Both the position numbers and the translations under genes were made by a program. Below, piece after piece: positions 3,521 through 30,065 of a DNA stretch of 32,119 nucleotides. Each line of letters opens with the position of its first letter. Position 1 is the stretch's first letter. The stretch is from an uncultured Clostridia bacterium (lineage in GTDB: Bacteria > Bacillota > Clostridia > Christensenellales > Aristaeellaceae): assembly GCA_944362695.1 (NCBI GenBank), contig CALVTQ010000091.1, positions 1 to 32,119 of the forward strand, read 5' to 3'. Below the pieces are notes generated by a model that saw only the letters and a program-made list of their open reading frames with translations, had not been told where the DNA came from and searched no databases.

Positions 3521-3526
3521 GCTCGC

Positions 3527-6432: not shown

Positions 6433-6435
6433 CGC

Positions 6436-7698: not shown

Positions 7699-7714
7699 CG
7701 CATTGATCTCCCTG

Positions 7715-9336: not shown

Positions 9337-9368
9337 AAAAACGGGGACGCCGGTCGCCCGACGTCCCC
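9337..9368 (-). terminator. Intrinsic terminator after the 539-residue binding protein
   Basis: On the minus strand GGGGACGTCGG and CCGGCGTCCCC form an 11-bp stem (one G.U pair) closed by a GCGA tetraloop of the GNRA type. The stem is followed by G and then five T. It lies 32 bases past the stop of the gene at 9401 and separates it from the pectin operon. Confidence 0.88.
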
Positions 9369-9400: not shown

Positions 9401-11020
9401 TTAGTTGCCGCGGGCGTTGAAGTTGTCGTAAGCCTGCTGATACAGCTCGATCAGCTTCTCGATGCCCATCTTCTGGAGGGTCTCCATGTAGGTATCGTAG
9501 TTGGTCAGCGGCTCCTCACCGGTGATGAACTTGTAGGTCATCTCGGAGATATAGGTGCCCATGTTCTCGATCTCGGCGACTTCCTTCTGCGCGTCGGTGC
9601 TCAGAACGATCGCGTTCGGGTACTCCAGCGCGTTGCTGGCCTGCGCCCACAGCATCGCGGAGTTCACGTAGCGCTCCTCACGGGTGGCGGCCAGGTAGTC
9701 GGCAGCGCCCCAGCGCGGGAAGGACACGTGGCTCATCGCATAGCGATACTTGTTGGCGAACGCGCCATCGTAGAAGTTCTCGGTCATCTGGTTGGCCCAC
9801 TCAGTCTCGTGCTTCACGCCGTTCTCATCGACGGTGTAGGTGCCGTGGCCGCCGGTCCACTCGGGGTTGATCGGGTCGCCCTCGATGGTGCCCCAGGTGG
9901 TGCAGTTGGTGCCTTCCTCGGTGTACATGGTGTCGATCAGGCGGGCAGCAGCCTCAACGTTCTGGCAGTCCACGCTGATGACGGCGCAGTAGCGGTCGCC
10001 GTAGCCCATGCCGTAGTCGTCGGCATAGATGTTGCCGTTGGCGTCCTTCGGCCACTGAACGGCCACGAAGTCCGCGTTCGGGTTCTTCTCCTGCACCTGC
10101 GGCAGACGCTGCTCCCAATAGTTGGACAGGCCCTTCCAGGAGCCGGCGAGGTCAGCATAGATGTTGGGGTCGGAGGAGTCGGCCGGAGCGCCGGTCTCGT
10201 CCGCGAAGACGTTCTGGATCAGGCCCTCGGCGTACCACTTGTTCATGGTCTCCAGGAAAGCCTTGTAGTTCTCGGTGTACTGGCCGTAGCCGACCTTGCC
10301 GGTCTCGGGGTTGATGTACACGCCGTTCTGGATGTCGAAGGCGGGCATGAACAGGTTCAGGCCAGCGGAGCCGGCGTCGAACGGGATCTCATCCTGCACG
10401 CCGTTGCCGTTCGGGTCGCCCTCCTTGAAGAGCGTGAGAACCTCATACCACTCGTCGATGGTCGTGGGGACCTCGGCGCCGACGTTGTCCAGCCAGTCCT
10501 GACGCATCATCAGGCCCCACCAGGTCACGGCAACCTTCTCCAGGTCGCTGTTGAGCGGGTTGATGACGGTGAAGTACAGGTAGCGGCCCTCGTCGTCCAT
10601 GAGGGTCTTGGCCACGTGCGGGTTCTCCTCAAGCAGCTTCTTGTAGTTGGGCATGTACTTGTCGATGACGTCGTTCAGCTCGATGATGATGCCGTCCGCG
10701 TACATCTGGGACACGCCGCCGGTGTAGTCGTTGTTGTGCTGCCACTGGATGATGTCCGGATAGTTGCCGCTGGCCATCATCGACAGGTACTGGGTGTTGA
10801 TCTCATCGCCGGAGCCGCAGATAACGGTCCAGTCGATATTGACGCCGGCCATCTGCTGAATCTTCAGCATGCCGACCAGACCCGGATAGATGTAGGGTTC
10901 GTACTCGGCGGTGCCGCCGCGGACCAGATAGGTCACGGTCGGGGTCTCCTCCGCCATGGCGGGCGCGACCAGCGTGAAGAGCATGGACAGCGCCAGCAGG
11001 GTTGCCAGGATCTTTTTCAT
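9401..11020 (-). CDS. Extracellular solute-binding protein, AlgQ/LplA-like, secreted form
   Basis: A 539-residue binding protein with a signal peptide ending VAPAMA before Glu24 and no lipobox cysteine, so it looks like a signal peptidase I substrate. Residues 202-211 (DPNGNGVQDE) form the AlgQ2-like calcium loop. It is clearly homologous to the lipoprotein at 7715, but they differ enough to suggest different ligands. The ATG at 11020 has a textbook AAAGGAGGT 8 bases upstream; an in-frame ATG 42 bases earlier lacks such a site and would spoil the signal peptide. The gene has its own consensus promoter and a strong terminator, so it is probably the most highly expressed gene in the region. It follows a permease pair (11267-13121), its most likely transport partner. 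Confidence 0.87.
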   Translation of the reverse strand: MKKILATLLALSMLFTLVAPAMAEETPTVTYLVRGGTAEYEPYIYPGLVGMLKIQQMAGVNIDWTVICGSGDEINTQYLSMMASGNYPDIIQWQHNNDYTGGVSQMYADGIIIELNDVIDKYMPNYKKLLEENPHVAKTLMDDEGRYLYFTVINPLNSDLEKVAVTWWGLMMRQDWLDNVGAEVPTTIDEWYEVLTLFKEGDPNGNGVQDEIPFDAGSAGLNLFMPAFDIQNGVYINPETGKVGYGQYTENYKAFLETMNKWYAEGLIQNVFADETGAPADSSDPNIYADLAGSWKGLSNYWEQRLPQVQEKNPNADFVAVQWPKDANGNIYADDYGMGYGDRYCAVISVDCQNVEAAARLIDTMYTEEGTNCTTWGTIEGDPINPEWTGGHGTYTVDENGVKHETEWANQMTENFYDGAFANKYRYAMSHVSFPRWGAADYLAATREERYVNSAMLWAQASNALEYPNAIVLSTDAQKEVAEIENMGTYISEMTYKFITGEEPLTNYDTYMETLQKMGIEKLIELYQQAYDNFNARGN

Positions 11021-11134
11021 GGGGGTTACCTCCTTTTTGAATTGGGTGTCGATATCGTTCAACGGCTTCCGCCGCCAAAACCGGGGTGATTCCGCGGGAT
11101 TTCCGCGCGCGTTTTTATTCGTGTAACCAGCACA

Positions 11135-11163
11135 ATTATAACCTATTATTTCCTGTTTGTAAA
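11135..11163 (-). promoter_or_regulatory. Near-consensus sigma-A-type promoter for the 539-residue binding protein
   Basis: On the minus strand, TTTACA (11163-11158) and TATAAT (11140-11135) are separated by exactly 17 bases. This leaves a transcribed leader of roughly 110 bases before the ATG at 11020, which could hold additional control. Confidence 0.85.
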
Positions 11164-11266: not shown

Positions 11267-12223
11267 TTACATGCCCGTCAGGCCGCTGCGCTCGACGCCC
11301 TCCATGAAGCGCTTCTGCAGGAACAGATACATGATCAGGATCGGCAGGATGCACAGGAACGTCGCCGCCATGAGCATGGCCTCGTTGAAGATCAGGCCCT
11401 CGATATCGTTCTTCTGGATCATGGTGAAGTTCTCCTTGCTCAGCTCCGCGAAGAGCGAAGGCAGGCGGTTGGGGAGCATCTTCAGCCACACGTCCGTCAC
11501 GTAGATGCCCGGCTCGAAGTAGTCGTTCCAGTGCCACACGAGCGAGAGCACCGTGCACACCAGCAGCGAGGACTGGCTCATCGGCAGCATGATGCGCAGA
11601 TACGTGCGGATCGGGCCGCAGCCGTCCACGCGCGCCGCCTCCTCCATCTCGTGCGGCAGGCCCATGAAGAACTGCCTGAACAGGAAGATGAAGAAGCCGC
11701 CGTTCAGACCGAAGCCGAAGAACGTGGGCACCAGCAGCGGCAGATACAGCGGGCTGTTGACCCAGCCCCAGTTGGAGTACTGCATGTACTGCGGGATGAT
11801 AATCGTCTGCACCGGCACGATCATCGAGAGGATGACCAGCCCAAAGAGCAGCCCGCGGCCGCGGAACTTATAGCGCGCAAAGGCATAGCCCGTCGCCGCG
11901 CAGGCGAACACGTGGCCCAGCGTGGCGATGACCGCGACCTTGATGCTGTTCCAGACGTACGTGCCGAACTGCAATTTGCGGAAGGCGATGGAGTAGTTGC
12001 TCCACGTCAGCTCCGAGGGAATCCACTTGACCGTGATGTTGATGAGGTCATCATCCGTCATCAGCGACTGCGTGATCATCTTGATGAAGGGATACAGGAA
12101 CACGAAGGACAGCGTCGCCAGCAGGAAATAGAACGCGGCGCGCAGGATGCCGTCGCGGATGCGGCGCACCCAGAAGGTCTTGCCCTTCTGACGGGGCATC
12201 TTCTTTGCTTTTGCTTTAGCCAT
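11267..12223 (-). CDS. Carbohydrate ABC transporter permease (MalG-type, CUT1), second pair
   Basis: A 318-residue integral membrane protein with a basic N-terminal tail, about six hydrophobic helices starting near residues 29-48, and the ATPase-contacting EAA loop EMEEAARVDGCGPIRTYLRI at 192-211. The C-terminal part carries an unusual insertion around residues 250-275, after WHWNDYFEPG, compared with the other MalG-type permeases in the window. It starts 7 bases after its MalF-type partner stops, behind an AAAGGAG site. It is the last gene of the eight-gene block; no obvious terminator follows, so some transcription may continue into the binding-protein gene at 11020. Confidence 0.88.
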   Translation of the reverse strand: MAKAKAKKMPRQKGKTFWVRRIRDGILRAAFYFLLATLSFVFLYPFIKMITQSLMTDDDLINITVKWIPSELTWSNYSIAFRKLQFGTYVWNSIKVAVIATLGHVFACAATGYAFARYKFRGRGLLFGLVILSMIVPVQTIIIPQYMQYSNWGWVNSPLYLPLLVPTFFGFGLNGGFFIFLFRQFFMGLPHEMEEAARVDGCGPIRTYLRIMLPMSQSSLLVCTVLSLVWHWNDYFEPGIYVTDVWLKMLPNRLPSLFAELSKENFTMIQKNDIEGLIFNEAMLMAATFLCILPILIMYLFLQKRFMEGVERSGLTGM

Positions 12224-12230
12224 TGTGCGC

Positions 12231-13121
12231 TCACTCCTTTCCGCCGGAGACGTACACGAACCGGCGCATCACGCCGATGGTGATGATGCACAGCAGGAAG
12301 GCGAATGCGAAATACACCCAGCCCATCGCCGCGCCGTGGGCAAACTGCTGCGGGTTGCCGAAGCTCTGCTTGTAGATGTAATCGACGATCGGGTTCGTCG
12401 CGTCGGTGAAGAAGTTGACGATGGTGTAGACCATGTTCATCAGGATCACCGGCGTGATCATCGGCAGCGTGATCTTCCAGAACATCTCCCACTCGGTCGC
12501 GCCGTCCACGCGGGCGGCCTCATACAGCGAGGAGGAAATGCCCTGCAGACCGGCCAGGAACAGCACGATCTGCACGCCCGACTTCCAGAGCACCACGGTG
12601 ATGCGGTCGAGCACGCCTTGCAGGAACTCCGTCAGGTTGTGGCCCAGCAGGTCGGCGATCAGCTCCGGCACCACAATGCCCGTCGTGATCGTCGTGCCGT
12701 CCGCGCCCATGCCCAGCATCTGCTTCATGACGTAGCCCGCGCCCAGCAGGACCGGGATGAAGAACGCCGCGCGGAAGAAGCCGCGGCCCTTCATCGGGCG
12801 GTTGATCAGAATCGCGATGACCAGCGAGAACACCAGACAGATCGGCGTGTTGAGCAGCGTATCCGTCACGGTCTGCAGGAACATCGGGATAAAGTTGATG
12901 TCGTAGAAGAAGATGTAGCGATAGTTTTCCAGCCCGACCCAGTCCATCACGAAGCCCTTGAGCTTGACGATGTCCGAGAAGGACAGCTGCATCGAGATCA
13001 GAATCGGCCGCAGGAAGAACAGGAACAGACCGATCAGCCAGGGGATCAGGAAGATGTATGCCTCCAGCGAGCGCTTCTTTTCCATGCTCATGCGGCGCTT
13101 CTTCTTGGCTTTCCCGCTCAT
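12231..13121 (-). CDS. Sugar ABC transporter permease (MalF-type, CUT1), second pair
   Basis: A 296-residue permease with a first membrane helix at about residues 20-38, a large loop between helices around residues 135-165, and the EAA motif SLYEAARVDGATEWEMFWKI at 198-217. It overlaps the preceding DUF5696-type gene by ATGA and is followed by its MalG-type partner, so the two are co-translated. It is only distantly similar to the MalF-type protein at 18341 in the same block, whose loop reads YEAGRVDG. The two pairs are therefore not a recent duplication. Substrate cannot be read from the sequence; the context suggests a pectic or related plant glycan. Confidence 0.88.
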   Translation of the reverse strand: MSGKAKKKRRMSMEKKRSLEAYIFLIPWLIGLFLFFLRPILISMQLSFSDIVKLKGFVMDWVGLENYRYIFFYDINFIPMFLQTVTDTLLNTPICLVFSLVIAILINRPMKGRGFFRAAFFIPVLLGAGYVMKQMLGMGADGTTITTGIVVPELIADLLGHNLTEFLQGVLDRITVVLWKSGVQIVLFLAGLQGISSSLYEAARVDGATEWEMFWKITLPMITPVILMNMVYTIVNFFTDATNPIVDYIYKQSFGNPQQFAHGAAMGWVYFAFAFLLCIITIGVMRRFVYVSGGKE

Positions 13122-15355
13122 TTGCTCCCCTCCTTAACCACCAGATAGTCCATGCCGGGCACGGTGTGGCCGTCAGCCTCCACGCTGTCCTGGCTGTAAT
13201 TGACATACACCGCCGTGCCGTTGTCGTATCGCACGCGATACACGTCGGGCGCGATCTGCTCGTGCGCGGTGATCATCGCCGTGCGCAGCTCGGAGAGCTC
13301 GCCCTCGCCGAATTCCCTGGCGACCTGCGCCACCTCATCGAGCCATGCGGTGTATTCCGCCGTGAACAGGCTCTGATATTCGGTGTACATCAGCGCCTCG
13401 GTGCTGCCCCACGTCAGCTCGAAGTAGGGCATGTAGCCCAGCTCCACCCAGCGCAGCATCTCGCGCTGCAGGTCGCTGGAGAGGTTGCCCGGCTCGCCGG
13501 TGTAGCTGCGCAGGCCATGCATGGCGATCTGGAAGAACGGCACGGCCTTCGTCGTGAACTGATAGCCGCTCGCCTCATAGGGCACGCGGGTGAACAGCTG
13601 CACATACGGCGCCGCCCAGATCGCGCCGCCCTCCACGCTGGCCGAGCCGAAGGTCTCCTTCGCGTCGGCGAGCATCTGCTTGTAGACCTCAAGCGTCTGC
13701 TCGGTGGTGTAGTAGTGGCCGCGGTTGTAGTTGAAGGGGATGAACTGTCCCATGCGCTCAAAGCGCATGCCGCCGAGGCCGAGATTGCCGCCCGCCTTGA
13801 CGAAGGCGTCGTATTTCTCGCGCGTGACCTCGGGGCTGAGGATGAACGTCGTCTCCTCCGGGTCGGTCAGGATGGCGTAGCTGGAGAGATACACCACGTC
13901 GTTGCGCTTGGAGTAGTTGCGGGAATCGGCGTTGGCCTCGATGAAGTTCGCCGTAACCGACAGGGTCGAGCCCATGTCCGCCGCCTTCTTCGCCAGCGCG
14001 GCGAGATCGTCGTTGCTGCCGATCGCGCCGTCCACAGGCAGGCGGTCCGGGAACATGCCGTATCCGCCCTTGGCCCAGCCCTTGAGCGACACCTGCGCGC
14101 CGCCGATGCCCGCCGCCTCGAGCGCATCGAGGATGCCGCCCGCCTGCTCGAGCGTCGTGACGGTGCGCTGCGTGTCAAACAGCAGGCCCTTCTCCGGCGC
14201 GCTCATGAACAGGTCGAGCGCCACGGACTGCTCCGCGATATCCGGCTCGAGGCCGTTTTTCATCAGATACTTGCGATAGGCCACGGCCATGTCGCTGTAA
14301 CTGTCCTCGCCCGCGGGCAGGAACATGAGGCGGATGGAGTAATCCGTCTCCATCGCGTTCGGGTCGTAGGTCTTGATCGAGCGGGTCGTCACGCGCAGGT
14401 CGTCAAAGCCCCTGCGATATTGCAGGTTGGCGAACACGTTGCTCACCGCCACGATCTTGTTGGAGGAGTTGACCGATATGCGCGCCGTCTGTGCGCCGTC
14501 CTCCACGACGGCCAGCATCGCGTTGCCCGCGATGGACACGCCGTACACCGGCATGAACACCTCCGGGTCCTCCTGATCGAAGAAGTCGAGCATGCTCTGC
14601 GCCTTCTCCGTGTTGCCGTATACGCTGAAGAGCTGCGTCAGCTCGCGGTAGTGGGCGTAATCCTTGAATTCGAGGATCGCGCCGGAGCCGTCGGGATACA
14701 GCAGGAAGCCGTCGGCGTTGTCCGAGCCGGAGCACAGATACGGCAGCATGTCGATCGAGACGATCGAGAACTCGCCGTAGGCGTTGATCGAACTGTACGG
14801 CACGCGCACCACGACGTCCTCGCCGTCGAGCACGACCTCCACCGACAGGGAAATCTGCGTGTTGCCCAGATCGTAATCAAGGCGCACGCCGTTTTCGATC
14901 AGCTCATAGGCCGTGGTCAGGTTCTTCTCGTTGAGCAGCACGGCGTTCGTGATCGAGCCGGCGCCCTTTTCAAGGTTGGTCACGTTGATGGTCAGAAGCG
15001 AGTTGGCCTTCTTGGCGTTCAGGCCCGCGAGCTTGCCGGTGAACGTCGGGTCGTTCATCGACGAGGACCACGTCACGCCGCTGGCCTTGTCCACCACGCT
15101 GAAGCCGCAGCTGTCCGCCGCCAGCAGCAGCGCCAGACGGTCGTTTTCGGCGATGGGCAGGTATCCCTGCTCCGTCAGCGCGGCGATGGCCGCATCCGGC
15201 GCGGGGACAGCGGTCGCTTCGCCGGCCGTCGCTTCCATGGGAATGGCTTCTTCGGCGGCAGCCGTTTCCACCGGCGCGGAGGCTTCCTCCCCCAGCGCCA
15301 CACCGCACAGGCTCAGCAGCAGCACGAGGCACAGGACGATCCATTTTTTCATCAT
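13118..15355 (-). CDS. Secreted DUF5696-like protein, glycoside-hydrolase-like architecture
   Basis: A 745-residue exported protein. Residues 1-22 form a signal peptide (cleavage near ALG/EE), followed by an Ala/Glu/Pro-rich linker (24-58), a beta-rich region (about 65-370) and then an alternating alpha/beta region (about 375-690) that looks like a TIM barrel. The barrel region includes GGAQVSLKGWAKGGYGMFPD (418-437), GSTLSVTANFIEANADSRNY (462-481) and YFELTWGSTEALMYTEY (644-660). A short beta-rich tail ends the protein. I recognise it as resembling the DUF5696 family of Bacillota, seen beside sugar permeases; no enzymatic activity is established that I know of. A beta-sandwich ahead of a barrel is the plan of several retaining and inverting glycosidase families, so a secreted or cell-surface glycan-active enzyme is my inference. 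It overlaps the following permease by 4 bases and lies 15 bases after the YIP1-like gene. Confidence 0.65.
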   Translation of the reverse strand: MMKKWIVLCLVLLLSLCGVALGEEASAPVETAAAEEAIPMEATAGEATAVPAPDAAIAALTEQGYLPIAENDRLALLLAADSCGFSVVDKASGVTWSSSMNDPTFTGKLAGLNAKKANSLLTINVTNLEKGAGSITNAVLLNEKNLTTAYELIENGVRLDYDLGNTQISLSVEVVLDGEDVVVRVPYSSINAYGEFSIVSIDMLPYLCSGSDNADGFLLYPDGSGAILEFKDYAHYRELTQLFSVYGNTEKAQSMLDFFDQEDPEVFMPVYGVSIAGNAMLAVVEDGAQTARISVNSSNKIVAVSNVFANLQYRRGFDDLRVTTRSIKTYDPNAMETDYSIRLMFLPAGEDSYSDMAVAYRKYLMKNGLEPDIAEQSVALDLFMSAPEKGLLFDTQRTVTTLEQAGGILDALEAAGIGGAQVSLKGWAKGGYGMFPDRLPVDGAIGSNDDLAALAKKAADMGSTLSVTANFIEANADSRNYSKRNDVVYLSSYAILTDPEETTFILSPEVTREKYDAFVKAGGNLGLGGMRFERMGQFIPFNYNRGHYYTTEQTLEVYKQMLADAKETFGSASVEGGAIWAAPYVQLFTRVPYEASGYQFTTKAVPFFQIAMHGLRSYTGEPGNLSSDLQREMLRWVELGYMPYFELTWGSTEALMYTEYQSLFTAEYTAWLDEVAQVAREFGEGELSELRTAMITAHEQIAPDVYRVRYDNGTAVYVNYSQDSVEADGHTVPGMDYLVVKEGSK

Positions 15356-15370
15356 CTTCTACCTCCTGCG

Positions 15371-15994
15371 TCAGTCGATGCGGTAGATGATCTCAAAGTA
15401 CATCTCGCGCACCATGCCCACGAACTGCGAGCTGATGGTGAACAGCAGGATGACCATTGCCCAGATCATCACCATGGTGAACAGGGAAAGGCCGATGAGC
15501 AGCACCGTTTTTCCCATTGAATAGCCGTTCATTTCCTTGAGCGCTAAAATCATCAAGAGGACAACCCAGCCCAGTATGATGATCTCCAGCGCCGTGAACA
15601 GGCCGATCTGGCTGTTTTCCATGATGCGGGAGGCCAGCGTCAGGATCGGTGTGAACACGATATACGGCACGAGCGCGTAGGACGAGAACAGCAGCGTCTC
15701 GTAAAACAGCGTCTCGCCGTCCAGGATGGTCGTCATCATGTAGGACGCCAGAACCCAGGTCAGCACCGGGACGAACAGCTTGCCGCACTCCAGCAGCAGA
15801 TTCGCCTTGCGCACGGTCACCGCCGCCAGCGGGTAATGCGTGCCGTAGATGGACAGGATGCGCACGGCGAGGGCCAGCAGCAGGAGCACCGCGATGGTCG
15901 TCCAGCTGCGCTTCTCCCCGCGCTGCTTTTTAATGTACTCGGTCACGACGACGGGATGATACAGCGTCATCAGGCACAGCTTCAAGCTTTTCAT
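15371..15994 (-). CDS. YIP1-like multipass membrane protein
   Basis: A 207-residue integral membrane protein with about five hydrophobic segments (near residues 33-50, 70-90, 103-121, 132-150 and 160-186) and no signal peptide. The N-terminal PVVVTEYIKKQRGEKRSW segment ahead of the helices and the overall size fit the bacterial YIP1/YIPF (DUF1282-like) group. Molecular function is unknown; such genes recur next to DUF5696 and sugar permease genes. The start overlaps the stop of the NHL/TPR protein as ATGA. Its position between the NHL/TPR and DUF5696-type genes suggests that the three proteins work together at the membrane. Confidence 0.6.
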   Translation of the reverse strand: MKSLKLCLMTLYHPVVVTEYIKKQRGEKRSWTTIAVLLLLALAVRILSIYGTHYPLAAVTVRKANLLLECGKLFVPVLTWVLASYMMTTILDGETLFYETLLFSSYALVPYIVFTPILTLASRIMENSQIGLFTALEIIILGWVVLLMILALKEMNGYSMGKTVLLIGLSLFTMVMIWAMVILLFTISSQFVGMVREMYFEIIYRID

Positions 15995-17424
15995 CCTTTA
16001 AGCCCCCTTCCCATCTCCACGTCGTCGGCCCACTCGTCCGCCTTGCGCTTGAGCAGGGACAGCAGCTTGATCAGCAGGAACATCCCCACAAAGACGGCAA
16101 AGACGACGGGCACGAAGTACTGCCGGAACATCTCGTGCCGGTATTCGGTGAACGCCTCGGAGTAGCCGTCCTTGTCCCCCGCCAGATAGTAGGAGTGGAG
16201 CGATTCCTCCCAGCGCTCCTGCTTGGCCATGACCTTGGCCACGCCCTGATGCGCCAGTGAGTAGTTGCTGTCGATGTCAAGCGCCTGCTCCCAGTAGCCC
16301 AACGCCTCCTGGTAGCGGCCCTCGCCGTGGAGCGTCACGGCCTCGTGGATCAGATGGATGAAATGCGTGGGCTTGAAGACCGTGATCGAGCCGGTGTTGT
16401 AGTCAAGCACGTACAGGTAGCCCTGACTGTCATGGTCGATGGACACGGGAATCTGGAACAGGCCGCCCACCGTGCCGATGCCGCCGAATGTGCAGAGCAG
16501 ATTGCCCTCCTGATCGTATTGATAGATCAGGCCGCTGATGCGGTCGACGACGGTGATGATGCCGTTGTCCTCGACGGTGATGTCCGCGAGCGTCGGCTCG
16601 AGCGGCTCGCCCTCCTCGTCGGTGAGCGTGAAGCCGTATTTCTGCTCCTCGTAGGTGTTGTTGCCCACGGAGTTGAGCTTGCGGATCTGCGCGGTATCCT
16701 TATTCGAAAGGATGCCGTAGATCATGTTGTCCGAGCCGATGTAGAAGTTGGAGTAGCTCGCCGGCTCCTGCTTGACCGTGCGCTCCACCTGCGACTTGGT
16801 GCCGAACATGCGGATGAGCATGCGCGAGAGCGAGAAGCCGACGTCGTCCGCGCCCAGATAGCCGCGGAAGTTGTTGCCCTCGTCGATGGCCAGAAGGTTC
16901 GCGCCCTTGAGCGCGTAGATGTAGCCCGTGTTGGCCACGAAGATCTTCTGCACGTCGAAGGTAAAGTTGTTTTCAAGCAGCGCCGAATCGGGCTTGAAGT
17001 ACGCCTTGCGGTCGGTGCGGTCCGCGTTGAGGGTCGCCAGACGCAGATTGCCCGTGTCGGCGATCCACAGCGAGCCGTCGTCCCCGACGTACACGCCGCG
17101 CGGCATCTTCAGGTCCTGCCCGCAGGCGGATGTGATCTCCTCGAGCACCACGCCCTCGCGGTCCATCACAAGGACGCGGTTGTTCTCCGTGTCGGCGACG
17201 TAGAGCAGGTCGTCCGGGCCGACGAAGATGTCCTCGGGATGGTTCATGAAGCCGTATTCGTTCAGGTTTTTGAATGTGGTATACACCTCATACGCCGCCG
17301 GAATCGGGATGTAATTCTCATCCTCGTCGGCAACGAAGGCGTCCACGCCGACCACCGCATACGCAGGGGAGCAGGCGCAAAGCAGCACGACAAGCGTCAG
17401 GAGCAGCGCCAGAAAACGTTTCAT
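15991..17424 (-). CDS. Membrane-anchored NHL-repeat beta-propeller protein with TPR segment
   Basis: A 477-residue exported protein. A signal sequence at 1-23 contains LCAC at 15-18, which could be a lipobox, as well as an AYA signal peptidase I site. Residues 60-350 hold NHL-type propeller repeats, clearest in MNHPEDIFVGPDDLLYVADT (60-79), RGVYVGDDGSLWIADTGNLR (109-128) and the stretch ending YLYVLDYNTGSITVF (337-351). Residues about 363-430 form a tetratricopeptide-like helical pair (GRYQEALGYWEQALDIDSNY). A single membrane helix at about 436-456 precedes a short basic cytoplasmic tail. The propeller and TPR should therefore face outside, like a receptor or scaffold. It follows the first permease pair by 14 bases and overlaps the YIP1-like gene. 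A scaffold for the importer or a glycan sensor are both possible. Confidence 0.65.
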   Translation of the reverse strand: MKRFLALLLTLVVLLCACSPAYAVVGVDAFVADEDENYIPIPAAYEVYTTFKNLNEYGFMNHPEDIFVGPDDLLYVADTENNRVLVMDREGVVLEEITSACGQDLKMPRGVYVGDDGSLWIADTGNLRLATLNADRTDRKAYFKPDSALLENNFTFDVQKIFVANTGYIYALKGANLLAIDEGNNFRGYLGADDVGFSLSRMLIRMFGTKSQVERTVKQEPASYSNFYIGSDNMIYGILSNKDTAQIRKLNSVGNNTYEEQKYGFTLTDEEGEPLEPTLADITVEDNGIITVVDRISGLIYQYDQEGNLLCTFGGIGTVGGLFQIPVSIDHDSQGYLYVLDYNTGSITVFKPTHFIHLIHEAVTLHGEGRYQEALGYWEQALDIDSNYSLAHQGVAKVMAKQERWEESLHSYYLAGDKDGYSEAFTEYRHEMFRQYFVPVVFAVFVGMFLLIKLLSLLKRKADEWADDVEMGRGLKG

Positions 17425-17438
17425 CGCTCAATCCCCCC

Positions 17439-18320
17439 TTACGACTTGATGCCCGAGTAGGACATGGTCTCCATGACCTTGCCGCGCATGAACGCGAACA
17501 CCAGAATGGCCGGCAGCGTCGTCAGGAACGTCGCCGCGCCGACAGCGCCGGAGCGCGCCACCACGCCCGCGCCGCCCGAGAGCGTCTGCAGCGCCAGCGG
17601 CAGCGTCTTGAGCGCGTTGGACTGGATGAAGATCAGCGGAGAGAAGTAATCGTTCCAGTTGTTGACGAAGGAGAACACCGCCAGCGTCGTCCACGCCGGC
17701 TGGAGCAGCGGCATGGCGATCGTCCAGAAGATGCGAAGCTCCTTCGCGCCGTCGATGCGCGCCGCCTCCAGGATGGAGTCCGGCAGCTGCTCGCAGAACT
17801 GCTTGACCAGGAAGAAGTTATACGCGACGGCGATTTTGGGGATGATCAGCGCCAGATACGTGTTGACCAGGCCCAGAGAGTTGACGACCAGATAGTTCGG
17901 AATCTGCGTGACATGCACGGAGAAGGACAGCGCCGCCACGACGATGCCGAAGATGATGTTCGAGCCGGCGGGCTTATGCTTGACCAGACCGTACGCGCCC
18001 AGACAGCACACGATGATCGACGCCACGCACGTCACCACCGTGGTGAACACGCTGTTGAAGATGTAGCGCGTAAACGGCACCGTGGAGGAGGACAGCGAGG
18101 TCAGCAGGTCCGAGAAGTTGCGCAGCGTCGGTTTCTGCACGATCAGCCGCGGCGGATACAGATACAATTCGTCCAGCGGCATCAGCGAGCGGCACACCAT
18201 CGCAAACAGCGGCAGACCGCAGAACACCACCATCATCGCCAGGAAGAGATAGAGCATGATCTTGGAGAAGGTCAGCTTCCTCAGACGAAAGCGCCTTCTT
18301 TTCACCTTGACAGCTACCAT
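17439..18320 (-). CDS. Carbohydrate ABC transporter permease (MalG-type, CUT1), first pair
   Basis: A 293-residue permease with an Arg/Lys-rich N-terminus, a first helix at about residues 21-42, and the EAA loop SILEAARIDGAKELRIFWTI at 182-201. The C-terminal part after NNWNDYFSPLIF carries a Gly/Ala-rich SGGAGVVARSGAVGAATFLT stretch before the last helix. It is encoded 20 bases after its MalF-type partner behind a GGGAGG site. Together they should form the pore used by the large binding protein encoded first in the operon. Confidence 0.9.
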   Translation of the reverse strand: MVAVKVKRRRFRLRKLTFSKIMLYLFLAMMVVFCGLPLFAMVCRSLMPLDELYLYPPRLIVQKPTLRNFSDLLTSLSSSTVPFTRYIFNSVFTTVVTCVASIIVCCLGAYGLVKHKPAGSNIIFGIVVAALSFSVHVTQIPNYLVVNSLGLVNTYLALIIPKIAVAYNFFLVKQFCEQLPDSILEAARIDGAKELRIFWTIAMPLLQPAWTTLAVFSFVNNWNDYFSPLIFIQSNALKTLPLALQTLSGGAGVVARSGAVGAATFLTTLPAILVFAFMRGKVMETMSYSGIKS

Positions 18321-18340
18321 TTGGATTCACGCCTCCCTTC

Positions 18341-19261
18341 TCAGGTGTCGTCCCGGAACATGCGCATGCACAGACGTCCCAGGAAGAATGTGATCAGGAA
18401 CAGCACCATGGCCACCGCCGAGGCATAACCCATGTTGAAGCGGGTGAATGCGTAGTCGTACAGATGGGCGACGATGGTGTGGGCCGCGTAGTTCGGGCTG
18501 GGCATGCCGGCCACGGCCGTCGCCACGTCGAACACGGCGAACGCGCCCACGATGGAGTTGATCGCGCCGAAGAGCATCTGCGGCTTCATCAGCGGGATCG
18601 TGATCAGGCGGAGCTCCTGCCACTTGTTCTTGATGCCGTCCACCCTGCCGGCCTCATACATCGACGGGTCGATGTTCTGGAAGCCCGCAAGGAAGGACAG
18701 GAAGCCGTTGCCCATGGACATCCAGACCGTGATGATCATGATGACCGGCAGGACGAAATCGGCATCCTTCGTCCAGAGGATGGGCTCCATGATGATGCCC
18801 AGCCGCAGGAGCAGGTTGTTGATGTAGCCGTAGCGGTCGCCGGAGAACAGGATCAGCCAGATCGTGGACATCGCCACGCCGCTGGTCAGGGACGGGGCGT
18901 AGAACGCGAGCGAGAAGAAGCCGCGTCCCCGCTTGACCAGCGTGATGATCCACGCCATGATGAAGGAGGCGAAGTAGCCCAGCGGGCCGGTCACCACCGC
19001 CAGCAGCAGCGTGTTCTGCAGCGAGATCAGGAATACGTCGTCGTCCAGAATCAACTGGGCGTAGTTGGACAGGCCAACGAAGTCCGGCTTCTGGATCATG
19101 TTGTAATTGGTCAGCGAGTAATACATCGCCACTGCCACCGGAACGATGACAAACACGGCGAACAGAACGAGGAAGGGCATCAGGAACGCATAGCCGACAG
19201 CATTTTTCTTCAGCCAGGCTTTCATGCCTTTCTTCGCCTTCTTTTGCGCGATGGCGGTCAC
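18341..19261 (-). CDS. Sugar ABC transporter permease (MalF-type, CUT1), first pair
   Basis: A 306-residue permease: basic amphipathic N-terminus, first helix about residues 23-48, and an EAA-type loop SMYEAGRVDGIKNKWQELRL at 200-219. The second alanine of the usual EAA is glycine here. The start is a GTG at 19261 with AAGGAGG 8 bases upstream; this ribosome site overlaps the region just after the preceding stop (gap 16 bases). It is adjacent to, and presumably works with, the binding protein at 19278 and the permease at 17439. Confidence 0.9.
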   Translation of the reverse strand: MTAIAQKKAKKGMKAWLKKNAVGYAFLMPFLVLFAVFVIVPVAVAMYYSLTNYNMIQKPDFVGLSNYAQLILDDDVFLISLQNTLLLAVVTGPLGYFASFIMAWIITLVKRGRGFFSLAFYAPSLTSGVAMSTIWLILFSGDRYGYINNLLLRLGIIMEPILWTKDADFVLPVIMIITVWMSMGNGFLSFLAGFQNIDPSMYEAGRVDGIKNKWQELRLITIPLMKPQMLFGAINSIVGAFAVFDVATAVAGMPSPNYAAHTIVAHLYDYAFTRFNMGYASAVAMVLFLITFFLGRLCMRMFRDDT

Positions 19262-19277
19262 GGGCTACGCCTCCTTT

Positions 19278-22181
19278 TTATTCGATGCCAAATTCCGCAC
19301 GTTTGTTCTCGAGTTCCTTGTTGATATCCTTGACGGCCTTCTCCAGCGTGTCGCGCACGTTCTTGTTGCTGACGACGACGCTGTTCCATGCGTTGATGAT
19401 GTGACGGCCCGTGAAGTAGCCGCCCGGGACGATCATCTGCTCGCGGGCCTCCTCCATCTGCGCCTTGATGATCTGCGCATGATGCTGATCCCACGGCAGG
19501 GAGAAGAAGGCGTTGACGTTGGCGGTGTTCCAGCGGGCGCCCGCGCCGAGGATGGCCTCAAGCTCGCGGCCATAGCGCGTCTGCGTCTCCTCGCTCATCC
19601 ACCACTTGAGGAACTCCCATGCGGCCTCCTGCTTGTCGCTCTGGCTGAGGATGACGCCGGCGGTCGCGGCCGTCGTGCCGACTGCGTGGCTGACGGTGCC
19701 GTCCGGCTGCTCCGTGCCGGGCACGGGGGCGATCGACCAGCGGCCATAGAGCTCGGGCGCGCTGGTGAGCAGCTGCAGGTAGGTCGCGTAGTTGCTCACG
19801 CCGATGGGCATCGTGCCGGTGCGGATGCGGGTGAAGAAGTTGCTCTCCGCGTCGATGCCGTAGTTGGCGTACATGTCCGTCCAGAACTTGAACGCCTTGT
19901 ATGCCTCCGGGGTGTCAAGCGCCGAGGCCGCGCCGTCGCTGACGTAGTAGTCGCCGCCCATCTGCAGCAGCAGCAGCGTGAAGCCGCGCAGCGCGCCGGG
20001 CGAGTTGGAGGACACGGACGTATCCACCGGCAGCGAGAAGGCCATGTTGTTCTCGTACAGGCGCGGCAGAACCTTCTGATACAGGTCCGTCCATGTCTGG
20101 GGCAGCTCGACGCCCAGCTCCTGCAGGATGTCCTGACGGTAGATCATGACGGTGAAGTCCATGGTCTCCGGCAGGGCGTAGACGCCGCCCTGGAAGGTGT
20201 AGGGCACGAGGCTGGAGTCGTAGAACTGGCTCGCCACCTCGTCAAAGTCCTCGAACTGCGTCAGGTCCACGACGGCCTCGCGGAATGCAAACTCGCCGGG
20301 CAGGTTGTAGTCCACCGACAGCGCCACATCCGGGGCCGTGCCGGAGGTCACCGACAGCAGGATGGTGTTGACCGAGCCGGTCGCCAGCTGGCCCGAGGGC
20401 AGCACGTGGAGGTTAACCACGATGCCGGTCTTGGGTGTGAAGTCCTCGTCGGCCAGCTCCTTGAGGATCTCGCCCCACTCCGTGCCGCGTCCGATCCAGA
20501 CGTCCAGCACGACCCTCTCCTTCGCTTCCTCGCCGTCCTCGTCGACGATCAGGCCGACGGAATCGTAGTCCTTATAGAAGGAAGCGATAAAGTTTTCGAA
20601 CGTGACGCCCATGCGCTGCCAGAAGGTCGAGGTCGCGATCTCCACCTGCGTCTGCGGGCTGTGCACGATCACGTAGTCCACGGCGAGCGGGCATTTTTCC
20701 ATGGTGGAAATGTACGTGCCGAGGTTGCTCTGCGCGTTGTCCATGTCGCTGAGCGCGCGCGGGATGCGGTCCACATCCTCCGCGAAGAAGTTCAGCTGGT
20801 CGATGATCTGGCGGTAGTTGTTCTCCATGGAGGTCGTCTCGTTGGAGATATCCGCCAGCAGATCCGCGCTCTCCTGCAGGCGTCCGGCCAGATACAGCAG
20901 CTGGTCGGCCAGGCCCGGCATGGTGCGGTACAGGTCGTATTCGTAGTTGTAGTCGGGCTCCGTGCCGGTGATCTTGACGATCTCGCGCTGCACCTCGCCC
21001 AGGTACGCGGTGTCCTTCTCCGTGCGGGTCATGATCTCGCCGATCGGGCCGAGCTTGACGGACATCTCGAGCGTGTGCTTACCCTTGGTCAGGTAGAACT
21101 GGAAGGGCTCGCCGTCCGCGCCGTGCAGCGTCTCGGCATACCATCTGTTGCTGTACGGGAAGGCGTACAGGCGCAGCTCGTCAAACGGAACCTCGCCGTC
21201 GATCGTGATCCGGCGGTAGGCGGGCATGCCCGCGTCGTTGTCCTGAAGCACCTTGAGCGTCAGGGAATACAGGCCGTCCTCCGGCACCTCAAAGTCCCAC
21301 GCGACGGCCGCGTTGCCAAGGCGCCAGCGCCAGCCGCCCACCACGTTGAGCACGCGGTTTGCGCCGGAGCGCGGCTCGGTCATCGGGTCTGCGTCGGATT
21401 CGCGGCGGATGACGTTCTCGCTGCGCCAGGTGGAATCCTCGCCCTGGAACTTGATCTGCACATCCGCGCCCACGGGCTTGTAGCCCTTCGCCTCGTACTC
21501 CGCGGCCACCTGCTCGTATGTCGGATAGACCGCCGGGGCGACGAGGACCAGCGTGCCAAGGGTCACGGGCTGGTCGACGTATTCCAGGCAGATCTCGTGC
21601 GTGCCCTCCGTCAGGTAGAAGCGGAAGGGGTCCACGTAGATGCCCTGGCCGTCCACGGCACGCACCGTCTGCCAAAGGCGGATCTCGGCCTGCTTGGGCC
21701 AGACCTCGTCGCCGATGGAGTTGATGCGCACATCGCCGCTCTCCTCGAAGCGGCGGTAGAAGCACAGGTTGTTCGCCTCATCGAACGGGAGCGCCCCGTC
21801 GATGGTCAGCTTGCGCTGGATCTTGGCCTCGTTGCCGTCTTGGGCAAAGTAGGTCACCTCCAGCTCGTAGAGTCCTGTTGCGGGGACATCCACCGTCCAT
21901 GTGACGGTGCTCTCCCCATCGCCCAGCACGAGCGCCTCAGCAGCGCCCTCCACCTGGGTTGCCAACGCCGCGTCTCCGGTCAGGGCTGCGGCAGAGGGCA
22001 GAAGTTCCAGTCGCGTGCCTTCGGGCGCCATGGGATAGGCCGCATAGGCCTCCAGAGCCTCGTCATAGCCGATGGCCGTTTCATTCTGAAAAGAATAATA
22101 ATCCGACCATTCCTCTCCCAGGGCAGGACATACAAAGCACATGCACGCCAGAACAAAGGCCAGCAGCGCGTTCCGCTTCAC
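19278..22181 (-). CDS. Large solute-binding protein with duplicated N-terminal carbohydrate-binding-like modules
   Basis: A 967-residue protein, about twice the usual size of a binding protein. After a signal peptide (1-22, no clear lipobox) come two related beta-sandwich modules, at about 45-215 and 240-385. Their repeated pattern is VPATGLYELEV..KLTIDGALPFDE (99-134) against VPEDGLYSLTL..RITIDGEVPFDE (299-334), each followed by an FYLT(E/K)G(T/K)H segment (188-195 and 362-369). A helical spacer spans about 415-495, and a CUT1-type binding domain about 555-960, with GGVYALPETMDFTVMIYRQD at 665-684 and a W.FLKWWMS segment at 855-863. The sandwich modules look like galactose-binding-fold carbohydrate modules. 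The GTG at 22181 is chosen because AAAGGAGG precedes it and it starts a proper signal peptide; the longer frame upstream has neither. It is the first gene of the eight-gene block, divergent from the AraC-type regulator. Confidence 0.82.
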   Translation of the reverse strand: MKRNALLAFVLACMCFVCPALGEEWSDYYSFQNETAIGYDEALEAYAAYPMAPEGTRLELLPSAAALTGDAALATQVEGAAEALVLGDGESTVTWTVDVPATGLYELEVTYFAQDGNEAKIQRKLTIDGALPFDEANNLCFYRRFEESGDVRINSIGDEVWPKQAEIRLWQTVRAVDGQGIYVDPFRFYLTEGTHEICLEYVDQPVTLGTLVLVAPAVYPTYEQVAAEYEAKGYKPVGADVQIKFQGEDSTWRSENVIRRESDADPMTEPRSGANRVLNVVGGWRWRLGNAAVAWDFEVPEDGLYSLTLKVLQDNDAGMPAYRRITIDGEVPFDELRLYAFPYSNRWYAETLHGADGEPFQFYLTKGKHTLEMSVKLGPIGEIMTRTEKDTAYLGEVQREIVKITGTEPDYNYEYDLYRTMPGLADQLLYLAGRLQESADLLADISNETTSMENNYRQIIDQLNFFAEDVDRIPRALSDMDNAQSNLGTYISTMEKCPLAVDYVIVHSPQTQVEIATSTFWQRMGVTFENFIASFYKDYDSVGLIVDEDGEEAKERVVLDVWIGRGTEWGEILKELADEDFTPKTGIVVNLHVLPSGQLATGSVNTILLSVTSGTAPDVALSVDYNLPGEFAFREAVVDLTQFEDFDEVASQFYDSSLVPYTFQGGVYALPETMDFTVMIYRQDILQELGVELPQTWTDLYQKVLPRLYENNMAFSLPVDTSVSSNSPGALRGFTLLLLQMGGDYYVSDGAASALDTPEAYKAFKFWTDMYANYGIDAESNFFTRIRTGTMPIGVSNYATYLQLLTSAPELYGRWSIAPVPGTEQPDGTVSHAVGTTAATAGVILSQSDKQEAAWEFLKWWMSEETQTRYGRELEAILGAGARWNTANVNAFFSLPWDQHHAQIIKAQMEEAREQMIVPGGYFTGRHIINAWNSVVVSNKNVRDTLEKAVKDINKELENKRAEFGIE

Positions 22182-22425: not shown

Positions 22426-22454
22426 TTGCACAAAATCTCCTTCTGTGCTATACT
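22426..22454 (+). promoter_or_regulatory. Promoter of the AraC-type regulator gene
   Basis: TTGCAC (22426-22431) and TATACT (22449-22454) are separated by 17 bases, 42 bases upstream of the chosen ATG. A second TATAAT at 22460-22465 overlaps the start region but has no matching -35. Confidence 0.75.
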
Positions 22455-22495
22455 TGGCGTATAATACGTCAGATGTTCCTTTGGGGAGGATGTCC

Positions 22496-24652
22496 ATGCT
22501 CTTTCGGCGTTCCAGAACATACTATAAATATTTATTGTCATATATCGCAGTGCTGCTGATGGCCGTGCTGATCCTGCTCGTCTTCTCTCAGGCGTTCTTC
22601 GTCACCTCCCTGCGCGAGAACCTCCAGCAGGCCCACCGCAGCCGACTGCTTCAGACCACCCAGCAGCTCGACAGGGACATCGAGCAGCTCTACACCATCG
22701 ACTACCAGCTCTCGACCGTCAATCAGAATTTCTTTTCTTATTACTTGGAGAACCCCAGCCCCCTTCGTGATCTGCGCCTTGTCAACGAACTGCGCAGCCT
22801 TCTGGCCTCCTCGCTGATGATCGACGAGCTGGCTCTCGTCCCCGCCGGAGACGGACAGGTGTATACCTCCACCGCCGTGTATGGCAAGCATCTCTTCTTT
22901 GACAGCATCTTTTCCTTCGACGGCGATTTATACGATACCGGCGCGATTTCCGCCCTGCAGAACAGGACCGTCCTGCCCGCCCGCCGCCAGGGCAGCGACC
23001 AGCGCTATCTCGCCTTCTTCAATACGCCCTCCGTGTTCTCCCGCCTTCAGGACACCGTCCTGATCTTTTTCGTGCGCGAGGATCACTTTCTGGAGCACCT
23101 CTCCCCGCTGGACAACCCCGGCCAGCAGGGCGCCGTCCTGGACGCCGAAGGCCGGGTCGTGGCCTCCACGCTGTCCCTCGCCGCATCGCCGACGGGCGAC
23201 CGGATCACCTCCGGCGGGGTCGAATATCTCGTTGAGCGCGTGCCGTCCGCCGTCATCGACTGGACTTATGTCTTCCTTCTGCCCGCCGCCGAGATGCTCG
23301 CGCCGCTTTTCCGCGCGCAGGTCACGGTGATGGTGCTGCTGCTGACGCTGCTGGCCGCCGGCGCGCTGGTCATCCACATGGCCATGCGCCTCAATTACCG
23401 CCCCATTCAGGCGCTGACCGAGTCCCTGGGCCGCAGCGGCAGCGACGATCTCGAGTCGCTCAAGGAGGCCATCGATTCCCTCTCCGCGCAGAACGCCCAC
23501 ATGCAGGCGCAGCTCATGAGCTCCCCCGACGGGCAGGCGCTCAAGGACGCGCTGCTCTTCTCGCTGCTCAAGGGCGGCTTCTCCTCCTTCGAGGCATACA
23601 ACCGCGAGGCCGCCGCGCTGGGCATGACCTTCTCAAAGCCGCGCTATCGCGTGCTGATGCTCCGCCTGTTCAATCAGGCCGAGACGCCCATCCCGCGCAA
23701 GACGCTCTCCGACATCCTCGCCGGCGCGCTCGGCGACGACTTCACGTGGTATTTCCGCGACCTGTTCGAGCAGTCGATGTATGTCTGCCTCGTCGGCCTC
23801 CAGGAGGGGCAGGAGGACGAGCTGACCGCGCGCTGCCGCGCCATGCTCGATGCCTGCGCCCAGCAGCACGCCCTCTCCTTCTCCATCGGCGCGTCCAATT
23901 GCTATGACGGCATCGCCTCCCTGTCCGCCGCCTGCTTCGAGGCGACGCAGGCCGTGCGCGAGCACTTCATCCGCGGACAGAATCAGTTCATCGCCTACGA
24001 CGAGCTCAGCCGCACGCTCAACGTCCAGACGAATTACCTCTCCATCCTCTCCGCCCTGCCCGAGCAGACGCCCAAGCAGCAGATGCAGACCGTGCGCGAT
24101 TTCGTCGGGACCCTCAAGGCCGACCGCGTCCCCGCGCTGCTCGCCAAGAGCTACTGCAACTCCGTCGTGCAGGTTCTGCTGACCCATGCCGCCCATCCCG
24201 TGAACATGAGCGACCTGTTCACCTTCACCTATCTGCGCACGGCCGACGACTACCTCGCCTTCATGCTCCACTTGCTTGACACCGAGCCCGAGCCTCTGCC
24301 CGCGCCCGAGACGAGCGCCGACATCCCCGTCAGCGACCTGCTGGCGCGCATATACGCCGTCATCGCGCAGAGCTACGACAGCTGCAACTTCTCCATACAG
24401 GATGCCGCTGAGAAGCTCTCGCTGTCCTCGAGCTATCTGGGCCAGTATTTCAAGCAGCAGACCGGCGAGACGCTCACCGGCTACGTCGCCCAGCTGCGCG
24501 TGCGCAAGGCGTGCACCCTGCTGCAATCGACCTCCATGCCCCTTCAGATGGTCTCCGAGTCGGTCGGCTACTACAATCAGAACAGCTTCATCCGCCGCTT
24601 CAAGCAGATCACCGGCGTGACCCCCGGCGAATACCGCAAGGCGAACCAGTGA
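22496..24652 (+). CDS. Membrane-bound AraC-family transcriptional regulator with extracellular sensor (YesN-like)
   Basis: A 718-residue regulator. A membrane helix at about 12-34 is followed by an extracellular region to about 275 that looks like a Cache-type sensor, a second helix at about 277-300, a helical and GGDEF-remnant-like middle, and a C-terminal AraC double helix-turn-helix at about 614-715. The C-terminus has FSIQDAAEKLSLSSSYLGQY for the first HTH and MVSESVGYYNQNSFIRRFKQ for the second. Such proteins sense extracellular sugars or binding-protein complexes and activate neighbouring transport operons. The ATG at 22496 has GGGGAGG with 6 bases of spacing; the ATG 6 bases earlier abuts the ribosome site. 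It is divergent from the large binding-protein operon, its most likely target. Confidence 0.88.
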   Translation: MLFRRSRTYYKYLLSYIAVLLMAVLILLVFSQAFFVTSLRENLQQAHRSRLLQTTQQLDRDIEQLYTIDYQLSTVNQNFFSYYLENPSPLRDLRLVNELRSLLASSLMIDELALVPAGDGQVYTSTAVYGKHLFFDSIFSFDGDLYDTGAISALQNRTVLPARRQGSDQRYLAFFNTPSVFSRLQDTVLIFFVREDHFLEHLSPLDNPGQQGAVLDAEGRVVASTLSLAASPTGDRITSGGVEYLVERVPSAVIDWTYVFLLPAAEMLAPLFRAQVTVMVLLLTLLAAGALVIHMAMRLNYRPIQALTESLGRSGSDDLESLKEAIDSLSAQNAHMQAQLMSSPDGQALKDALLFSLLKGGFSSFEAYNREAAALGMTFSKPRYRVLMLRLFNQAETPIPRKTLSDILAGALGDDFTWYFRDLFEQSMYVCLVGLQEGQEDELTARCRAMLDACAQQHALSFSIGASNCYDGIASLSAACFEATQAVREHFIRGQNQFIAYDELSRTLNVQTNYLSILSALPEQTPKQQMQTVRDFVGTLKADRVPALLAKSYCNSVVQVLLTHAAHPVNMSDLFTFTYLRTADDYLAFMLHLLDTEPEPLPAPETSADIPVSDLLARIYAVIAQSYDSCNFSIQDAAEKLSLSSSYLGQYFKQQTGETLTGYVAQLRVRKACTLLQSTSMPLQMVSESVGYYNQNSFIRRFKQITGVTPGEYRKANQ

Positions 24653-26269: not shown

Positions 26270-27623
26270 ATGAAAAAGAAGATCGCTCTGTTCCTGGCGC
26301 TCACCCTCGCGGCTGTGATGCTGTGCTGCGGCGCGCTGGCCGAGCAGACCCTCCCCACGATCGACCAGATCAAGCTGGGCGAGGACTACCAGGACGTCAC
26401 CGCGTCCATCAAGATCCTGACCAACCGCACCGACATCGTGGACACCACGTATGCCGAGTATGCCAAGCAGTTCATGGAGCTCTATCCGAACATCACCATC
26501 ACCTATGAGGCCGTGACCGACTACGAGCAGATACGAGCAGAGCCTGCCCCTGCGCCTGTCCAACCCGGCGGGCGACTGGGGCGACATCTGCTTCATCCCC
26601 TCCACCGTGACCAAGGCCGACCTGTCCCAGTACTTCATCCCGATGGGCAGCTTCGACACGCTTAATCCCATCTACAACTTCATCCCGGACAAGACCTATG
26701 ACGGCGTCGTGTACGGCATCCCGAACGGCGGCAACGCGGACGGCATCGCCTACAACAAGCGCATCTGGGCCGAGGCCGGCGTGACCGAGACCCCGGCGAC
26801 CCCGGAAGAGTTCCTGGCCGCCCTGCAGAAGATCAAGGACAACACCGACGCCATCCCGCTGTACACCAACTTCGCCGCGGGCTGGACGATGGGCGCGTGG
26901 GATGCCTACATCTGGGGCAGCGCGACCGGCGATCCGGACTTCCACAGCAACATCCCGCACATGAAGGACCCGTTCTCCAAGCGCGATGACATGACCGGCC
27001 CGTACGCCGTGTACTACGTGCTCTACGAGTCCGTCGTGCGCAACCTGATCGAGGAAGACCCGATGTCCACCGACTGGGAGTCCTCCAAGGGCCGCATCAA
27101 CAACGGCGAGATCGCGACGATGGTGCTGGGCTCCTGGTCTGTGCAGCAGTTCAAGGATGCCGGCCCGAACCCGGACGACATCTCCTACATGCCCTTCCCG
27201 ATCACCGTGGACGGCAAGCGCTATTCCGGCGCGGGCGGCAACTACGCCTACGGCATCAACGCCAAGGCTTCCTATGAGAACCAGATCGCTTCCATGCTGT
27301 ATGTGAAGTGGCTGCTGGACGAGTCCCCGATCTTCGTGGACGAGGGCTGCATCCCGGCGCGCAAGGACGGCGAGATGCCGGCGTTCCTGGCCGACTTCGC
27401 GGGCGTCGAGCTCGTGTCCAACAACCCGGCTCCGGCCGGCGAGGAGGACCTGTTTGACAAGGTCAACCAGGAGTCCGAGGTTGGTCTGAACAGCAACGAC
27501 TACCCGGATATGAAGATCCTCGAGGATGCGATGATGGGCGTCTCTCTGGACGACATCATGGCCGAGTGGAACGAGAAGTGGTCCGACGCGCAGGAGAGGC
27601 TCGGCGTCGACGTGACCATGTAA
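26270..27623 (+). pseudogene. CUT1 solute-binding protein for manno-oligosaccharides, frameshifted by a 10-bp duplication
   Basis: The first frame (26270 to the stop at 26665) gives a signal peptide ending GALA/EQ and a normal N-terminal binding domain up to about residue 87 (YEAVTDYEQ), then switches to nonsense. The third frame continues the protein from LPLRLSNPAGDWGD to the stop at 27623. An exact 10-base tandem duplication sits at the junction. Removing one copy restores one 447-residue frame with DYEQSLPLRLSN across the join, and the total length then divides exactly by three. The intact protein would be a standard extracellular binding protein (typical segments GVVYGIPNGGNADGIAYNKR and EIATMVLGSWSVQQFKDAG). 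The ribosome site AAGGAGG and a good promoter remain. As written the product is a short truncated protein, so import through the following permeases may be lost. Confidence 0.88.
26522..26541 (+). repeat. Exact 10-bp tandem duplication causing the frameshift
   Basis: TACGAGCAGA is present twice in direct succession (26522-26531 and 26532-26541). Ten bases is not a multiple of three, which shifts the frame by one. Slipped-strand mispairing would create or remove it. Confidence 0.95.
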
Positions 27624-29720: not shown

Positions 29721-29736
29721 GCCCTCTCTCTTATCA

Positions 29737-30059: not shown

Positions 30060-30065
30060 ATCATT

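Follow-up and report, generated by a model that had tools for sequence, protein, structure and literature searches.

The closest described relatives of the system considered here are the CUT1-type ATP-binding cassette (ABC) importers, such as AlgQ/AlgM1-AlgM2, SugA-SugB and MalFG, and the SusC/SusD polysaccharide utilization loci, in which substrate-specific enzymes surround a conserved capture-and-transport core. Individual parts also invite comparison with the PknD ectodomain and with the GH129/GH101 α-glycosidases (NagBb, ZgGH129/DagB and EngBF). We analyzed an eight-gene block within a 32,119-nucleotide stretch of DNA from an uncultured Clostridia bacterium (the window), which is one contig of a 2.93-Mb draft genome that is 83% complete. 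Unlike the known CUT1 importers, the block has two permease pairs, a 967-residue multi-domain solute-binding protein (SBP), and three proteins between the pairs, i.e., an NHL/TPR protein, a YIP1 protein and a DUF5696 protein (the trio). We interpret it tentatively, with slightly less than even confidence, as a constant capture-and-import core for glycans, with a DUF5696 protein that does not cut and an NHL/TPR-YIP1 scaffold. Direct support comes from its anatomy, predicted folds, gene order, co-occurrence in genomes, gene fusion, and the conservation of the first binding protein (SBP1) as against the variability of the neighboring one (SBP2). The eight open reading frames (ORFs) run from 22181 to 11267:

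19278–22181, minus strand: SBP1, 967-residue secreted binding protein (Pfam, N-terminus, upstream site, structure-profile matches)
18341–19261, minus strand: MalF1, CUT1 permease of pair 1 (Pfam; EAA loop EAGRVDG; solved-permease match)
17439–18320, minus strand: MalG1, CUT1 permease of pair 1 (Pfam; EAA loop EAARIDG; solved-permease match)
15991–17424, minus strand: NHL/TPR protein (Pfam, hydropathy, model of a fused relative)
15371–15994, minus strand: YIP1, five-segment membrane protein (Pfam, hydropathy, fusion in many relatives)
13118–15355, minus strand: DUF5696, secreted protein of predicted GH129-type fold, GH129 nucleophile absent (Pfam, predicted fold, alignments)
12231–13121, minus strand: MalF2, CUT1 permease of pair 2 (Pfam; EAA loop EAARVDG; best solved relative AlgM1)
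11267–12223, minus strand: MalG2, CUT1 permease of pair 2 (Pfam; EAA loop EAARVDG; solved-permease match)

Distances between successive genes, computed from the ORF list, are 16, 20, 14, −4, 15, −4 and 7 bases. Pfam supports the name of each of the eight proteins, with the TPR matches of the NHL/TPR protein falling below the cut-off. Together, the ORF list and Pfam bear out the gene order, and the gaps and overlaps of no more than 20 bases, that an earlier note on this DNA had described. Its placing of the trio at or outside the membrane agrees with a simple hydropathy scan, which found a hydrophobic segment at either terminus of NHL/TPR, five such segments in YIP1, and an N-terminal segment plus one interior stretch in DUF5696. 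One correction was required: two more solute-binding proteins, SBP2a (11062–9401) and SBP2b (9250–7715), lie downstream on the same strand.

All four permeases score above the Pfam cut-off for BPD_transp_1 and, like the known CUT1 importers, both pairs carry EAA loops; since these are kept throughout, the idea that pair 2 is a decayed duplicate was unsupported. Both pairs have adjacent binding proteins, with SBP1 before pair 1, and SBP2a and SBP2b after pair 2. A further difference from the CUT1 importers is that no OB_MalK ATPase gene was found in the window. Three OB_MalK matches occur on other contigs of the same genome, and a MalK-type ATPase encoded elsewhere would energize both importers. 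The two pairs are predicted to transport oligosaccharides.

Conservation of the cassette was assessed in two sets of loci. Set 1 contains 61 loci, i.e., the window and 60 stretches around matches to the DUF5696 model in related and phylum-wide genomes, picked by hand in descending order of match strength, with five weaker ones added; it includes four GH129-type loci (L077–L080) and a lone weak DUF5696 relative (L076). Set 2 contains the best 80 of at least 577 candidate stretches matching an SBP1 alignment, an uneven sample that is mostly Paenibacillus. With profiles built from set 1, the full trio was detected in 56/57 DUF5696 loci of set 1 and 77/80 loci of set 2, or 78/80 once tblastn had located DUF5696 in L137. 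The misses were L076 and two loci on short contigs, L146 (7.2 kb) and L188 (3.8 kb). The earlier note had proposed that a trio rarely found with the permeases would speak against its proposal; this neighborhood test did not refute it, as 134 of the 137 loci selected via DUF5696 or SBP1 have the whole trio.

As read with a simple gene caller that misses some permeases, the eight-gene order was exact in 83 of 141 loci, while 11 had the trio with MalF2-MalG2 alone and six had the trio and pair 2 followed by SBP1 and pair 1. MalF2 directly followed DUF5696 (median gap −3 bases) in 50/56 and 73/77 trio loci of sets 1 and 2, respectively, and MalG1 immediately preceded NHL in 34/56 and 70/77. Simple-pattern EAA loops were present in MalF1 (119/119), MalG1 (119/119), MalF2 (94/124) and MalG2 (127/127). 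The cassette was also found on contigs of Chloroflexota and Dictyoglomus draft genomes (L122, L135, L136 and L184), where binning errors are possible. In L117 (12920–17088) it adjoins Omp85/POTRA and weakly S55-peptidase-like genes, so that it seems to occur in an outer-membrane lineage too. The window genome itself has two further cassettes, L061 (contig C124) and L062 (C24), with a 921-residue NHL ORF in one and an NHL-YIP1 fusion in the other.

Co-occurrence was scored in 398 genomes drawn from the window's phylum, Bacillota, some of whose loci here are near-identical to named Paenibacillus loci, using the best two or three candidates per genome. DUF5696 was detected at E < 1e-100 in 37 genomes, including that of the window, after nine with weak partial matches only had been dropped; NHL/TPR was detected in 38 (E < 1e-30) and SBP1 in 45 (E < 1e-80), or 40 after dropping five that matched only the ordinary C-terminal SBP half (about 300 bits). 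All 37 DUF5696 genomes also carry NHL/TPR and SBP1. The extra NHL genome (G302) has a 284-residue fragment, and the three extra SBP1 genomes have SBP1 on contigs of 3.1–4.3 kb. Because the genomes are related, the Fisher value of 2e-51 is only descriptive. The recurring order across loci and the co-occurrence across genomes rule out a chance operon or an arrangement confined to a single lineage.

Within the cassette, median pairwise identities in set 2 (62 complete loci) were 0.40 for SBP1, 0.53 and 0.50 for pair 1, 0.40 and 0.41 for pair 2, 0.36 for NHL and 0.29 for DUF5696, with 0.30 for the 40 separate YIP1 proteins. The neighboring SBP2 had a median of only 0.18 (51 loci). As set 2 was fetched with SBP1, this comparison favors SBP1; for set 1, chosen without SBP1, 28 loci gave 0.40 for SBP1 and 0.22 for SBP2. 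Of the 141 loci, 97 had an SBP2 close to the cassette (37/61 in set 1, 60/80 in set 2). Among 87 genes after MalG2 (85 of 88, omitting three cassette SBP1s, plus the two window SBPs), Pfam identified SBP_bac_1 in 30, GH5 in nine, GH10 in six, GH26 in five and GH113 in two, and SBP_bac_1 was found in 52 of 91 genes before SBP1 (one long ORF of 92 being omitted). GH43 and GH28 likewise occur among these neighbors. In a random sample of 105 of the 428 other flanking proteins, counting the 25 commonest families, there were ten AraC-type regulators, six response regulators, five GH43 and three GH38 proteins. Given the higher identity of SBP1 than of SBP2 and the varied neighbors, we regard the cassette as a conserved core with exchangeable binding proteins and enzymes.

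Five genomes belonging to one family (G121, G160, G194, G224 and G299; loci L201, L215, L205, L204 and L207, respectively) also carry an SBP1-MalF1-MalG1 unit with no trio in the 15–20 kb examined. These genomes have trio-pair 2 modules or full cassettes elsewhere, the known matches in G299 being those on contig C161. This suggests a shared unit and repeatable modules. With variable SBPs nearby in most loci as well, a single binding protein need not serve both permease pairs. The trio-free unit in L205 lies beside M42-type peptidase-like and shikimate-pathway-like genes, as read from sequence starts. Such a unit beside housekeeping-looking genes would be accommodated if NHL-YIP1 and DUF5696 served permease assembly or quality control, or the lipid environment, with the link to sugar loci being inherited synteny; YIP1 families act in eukaryotic membrane traffic. 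We consider this the least probable of the alternatives, because the genes of the cassette stay together on contigs of Bacillota, Chloroflexota and Dictyoglomus while their neighbors change, and because DUF5696 is predicted to have a secreted sugar-hydrolase fold.

The NHL/TPR protein has a signal-like N-terminus, an NHL propeller (Pfam, E = 9e-16), TPR-like helices and a C-terminal membrane helix. YIP1 belongs to PF04893 (37.6 bits against a cut-off of 28.6; E = 2.6e-9). The two are fused in 48 of 132 rows, with at least nine changes of state on the starred branches of the tree. Structural matches to the predicted model of a fused NHL/TPR relative include the PknD ectodomain, which is likewise an NHL propeller on a membrane helix. 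The NHL/TPR protein differs from PknD in having TPR-like helices between propeller and membrane, and in its frequent fusion to YIP1; by Pfam, no kinase domain was found in the window protein. The PknD match would suit a sensor, in which the propeller reads glycan or binding-protein load outside the cell and YIP1 relays this state to the permeases or regulators, as would the divergent AraC-type regulator gene (22445–24652, plus strand; Pfam and family-model scans) that adjoins the window cassette, and the frequency of AraC-type proteins in the flanking sample (10/105). A sensing role is nevertheless improbable, as Pfam found no cytoplasmic signaling domain in either NHL/TPR or YIP1 of the window. 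Moreover, TRIM-type NHL domains match the model as well as PknD or better, so that the fold is not specific to sensing. A defense role for the trio was dropped, since none of its three proteins matched a PADLOC anti-phage model at E 0.001.

The start of SBP1 was placed at a GTG codon at 22181. Because AAAGGAGG lies immediately upstream and the N-terminus is signal-like, this start was preferred over the mechanical 1026-residue ORF, which was rejected; the length of 967 residues given previously is thereby confirmed. SBP1 consists of weak CBM35-like regions, a coiled-coil-like stretch and a C-terminal CUT1-type solute-binding domain. By Pfam, residues 567–867 match SBP_bac_1 (E = 3e-28), and residues 75–121 match Golvesin_C/CBM_35 below cut-off. 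In profile comparisons, profile positions 563–871 matched Lin1841 (E = 1.4e-23), and profile positions 303–398 matched a part of 5x7g, a cycloisomaltooligosaccharide glucanotransferase, that we take to be CBM35 (E = 1.6e-6).

DUF5696 matches PF18952 over positions 3–612 of 612 (488.7 bits against a cut-off of 25.6; E = 3e-146). Its predicted fold is of the GH129 type, with an N-terminal β domain, a TIM barrel and a C-terminal β domain. Unlike the GH129/GH101 α-glycosidases, neither the window protein nor the family conserves the GH129 catalytic pair, i.e., the NagBb nucleophile D435 and the acid/base Glu, which we take to be E478. At the nucleophile column the window protein has R534 or F538, depending on the alignment, and at the acid/base column E575. 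Across the family, the nucleophile column is D or E in 28/58 or 14/58 rows, again by alignment, the acid/base column is acidic in 25/58, and both are acidic in 11/58 or 7/58, whereas both residues are kept in 4/4 GH129 relatives.

A reading in which DUF5696 is an active exo-α-glycosidase with a relocated active site, trimming side chains at the surface while the pairs import two kinds of product and NHL-YIP1 acts as an anchor, would draw on the GH129-type fold predicted along its whole length, and on a polar set kept by most of the family (D542 in 47/58 rows, R551 in 53/58, D602 in 49/58 and E638 in 57/58). The GH129-like enzyme DagB is reported to be active, although only Asp435 of the two catalytic residues of NagBb is conserved in DagB homologues (PMC5698469). 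The rarity of rows in which both catalytic columns are acidic counts against this reading, as does the window clade, where D542, R551 and D602 are all lost together in 5/5 rows. We judge it unlikely, albeit the strongest of the rivals. With Arg or Phe in place of the nucleophile, and a catalytic pair that is not conserved in the family, α-glycosidase activity of the window copy is a weak prediction. The GH129-type proteins of L077, L078, L079 and L080, from the genus and order of the window, are close to B. bifidum NagBb (E = 1.5e-217); DUF5696 was the best Pfam match in the three of these that were scanned, so that this model reaches beyond its own family into GH129.

In the capture-and-import interpretation that we favor, SBP1 would catch glycan chains at the surface via its CBM-like modules. 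Anchored in the membrane through its own helix and through YIP1, the NHL/TPR protein would act as a scaffold and keep DUF5696 and the binding proteins next to both permease pairs. DUF5696, descended from a glycosidase but with the usual catalytic pair absent, would bind or present the chain and not cut it. Pair 1 would receive its ligand from SBP1, and pair 2 from the neighboring variable SBP2. The variable SBP2s and enzymes would set the substrate, here pectin fragments. We infer the physical complex, the hand-over, the pairing of permeases with binding proteins and the substrate. The surface machine of the earlier note, combining capture, scaffolding and uptake, fits these parts, whereas the cleavage it allowed for is weak for the window copy.

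Several points weigh against this interpretation. Beyond anatomy, predicted fold and co-occurrence, all of it is inference. The NHL-YIP1 fusion shows no more than that these two proteins belong together, the simple EAA pattern is absent from 30/124 MalF2 rows, and, by analogy with DagB, a protein with a glycoside hydrolase fold can remain enzymatically active despite an altered active site (PMC5698469). The genomes are not independent, the NHL protein occurring in 21 genera, and two pairs of loci, L087/L148 and L091/L175, are the same in both sets. Glycosidases do not adjoin every copy: in one scan, four of ten flanking proteins had no Pfam match, and of the 105 flanking proteins sampled the majority are not glycosidases.

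Like SusC/SusD loci, the block is a conserved capture-and-transport core amid substrate-specific enzymes; unlike them, it has ABC permeases instead, and no SusC/SusD-type Pfam match was found among the 28 window ORFs scanned. A bolder view, which we regard as possible but less probable than the capture-and-import core itself, is that of a separate glycan-uptake machine of Bacillota, Chloroflexota and Dictyoglomus: a single complex with two CUT1 importers around a membrane-anchored NHL propeller-TPR-YIP1 scaffold, a catalytically retired DUF5696 presenter, and a universal giant binding protein alongside an exchangeable second one. The parts are known families, but as far as literature searches go no system with this assembly has been described, and no published function of DUF5696 or the cassette was found in the literature searched, which covered few subscription journals. 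A C. bescii regulon paper lists transporters of unassigned function, and "YIP1" is absent from its main text (PMC8579813). If correct, our interpretation would assign a function to DUF5696, a bacterial branch of YIP1 and a binding-protein family of about 970 residues, and would provide a model of the way in which polysaccharide fragments are held at the membrane of bacteria that lack SusC/SusD. As copies adjoin enzymes for differing plant polysaccharides, knowledge of the core would also make it possible to predict the substrate of a copy from its second binding protein and its enzymes.

Downstream of the block, the window contains the following features:

11135–11163, minus strand: promoter-like site TTTACA-17-TATAAT before SBP2a (consensus match only, 11/12)
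9401–11062, minus strand: SBP2a, AlgQ-like solute-binding protein (structure-profile matches)
9343–9368, minus strand: terminator-like hairpin after SBP2a (consensus match only)
7715–9250, minus strand: SBP2b, AlgQ-like solute-binding protein with lipoprotein-like N-terminus (structure-profile matches, Pfam)
807–7809, minus strand: pectin-type enzymes, i.e., GH28, GH95, GDSL esterase, pectinesterase/GDSL and GH88 (Pfam)

Both SBP2 proteins resemble AlgQ1/AlgQ2. The best solved match of each was 5xs8 (E = 1.7e-31 for SBP2a and 2.1e-45 for SBP2b), with AlgQ1/AlgQ2 at about 1e-22 for SBP2a and AlgQ2 at 1e-38 for SBP2b. The block is separated from SBP2a by 204 bases, measured to the mechanical TTG start of the latter. 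Because of the promoter-like site before it and the hairpin after it, SBP2a may form its own transcription unit, judging by consensus matches of which the window has 10 promoter-like (4.2 expected) and 22 terminator-like (10 expected). A search of the window for RNA elements found none above Rfam gathering scores.

On the plus strand, a LacI-type regulator is followed at 27853–31385 by a third pair of ABC importer genes and a gene resembling cellobiose-2-epimerase (NF041848, 293 bits, below the cut-off of the model), suggesting a second, non-pectin locus. SBP models match the binding protein of this importer (26607–27623) only from position 56 or 104 onward, and a 131-residue ORF in a different frame precedes it (26270–27623); perhaps there is a frameshift, either real or made by the assembly. 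At the contig edge (2–649, plus strand), Pfam identified a fragment of an IS110-type transposase.

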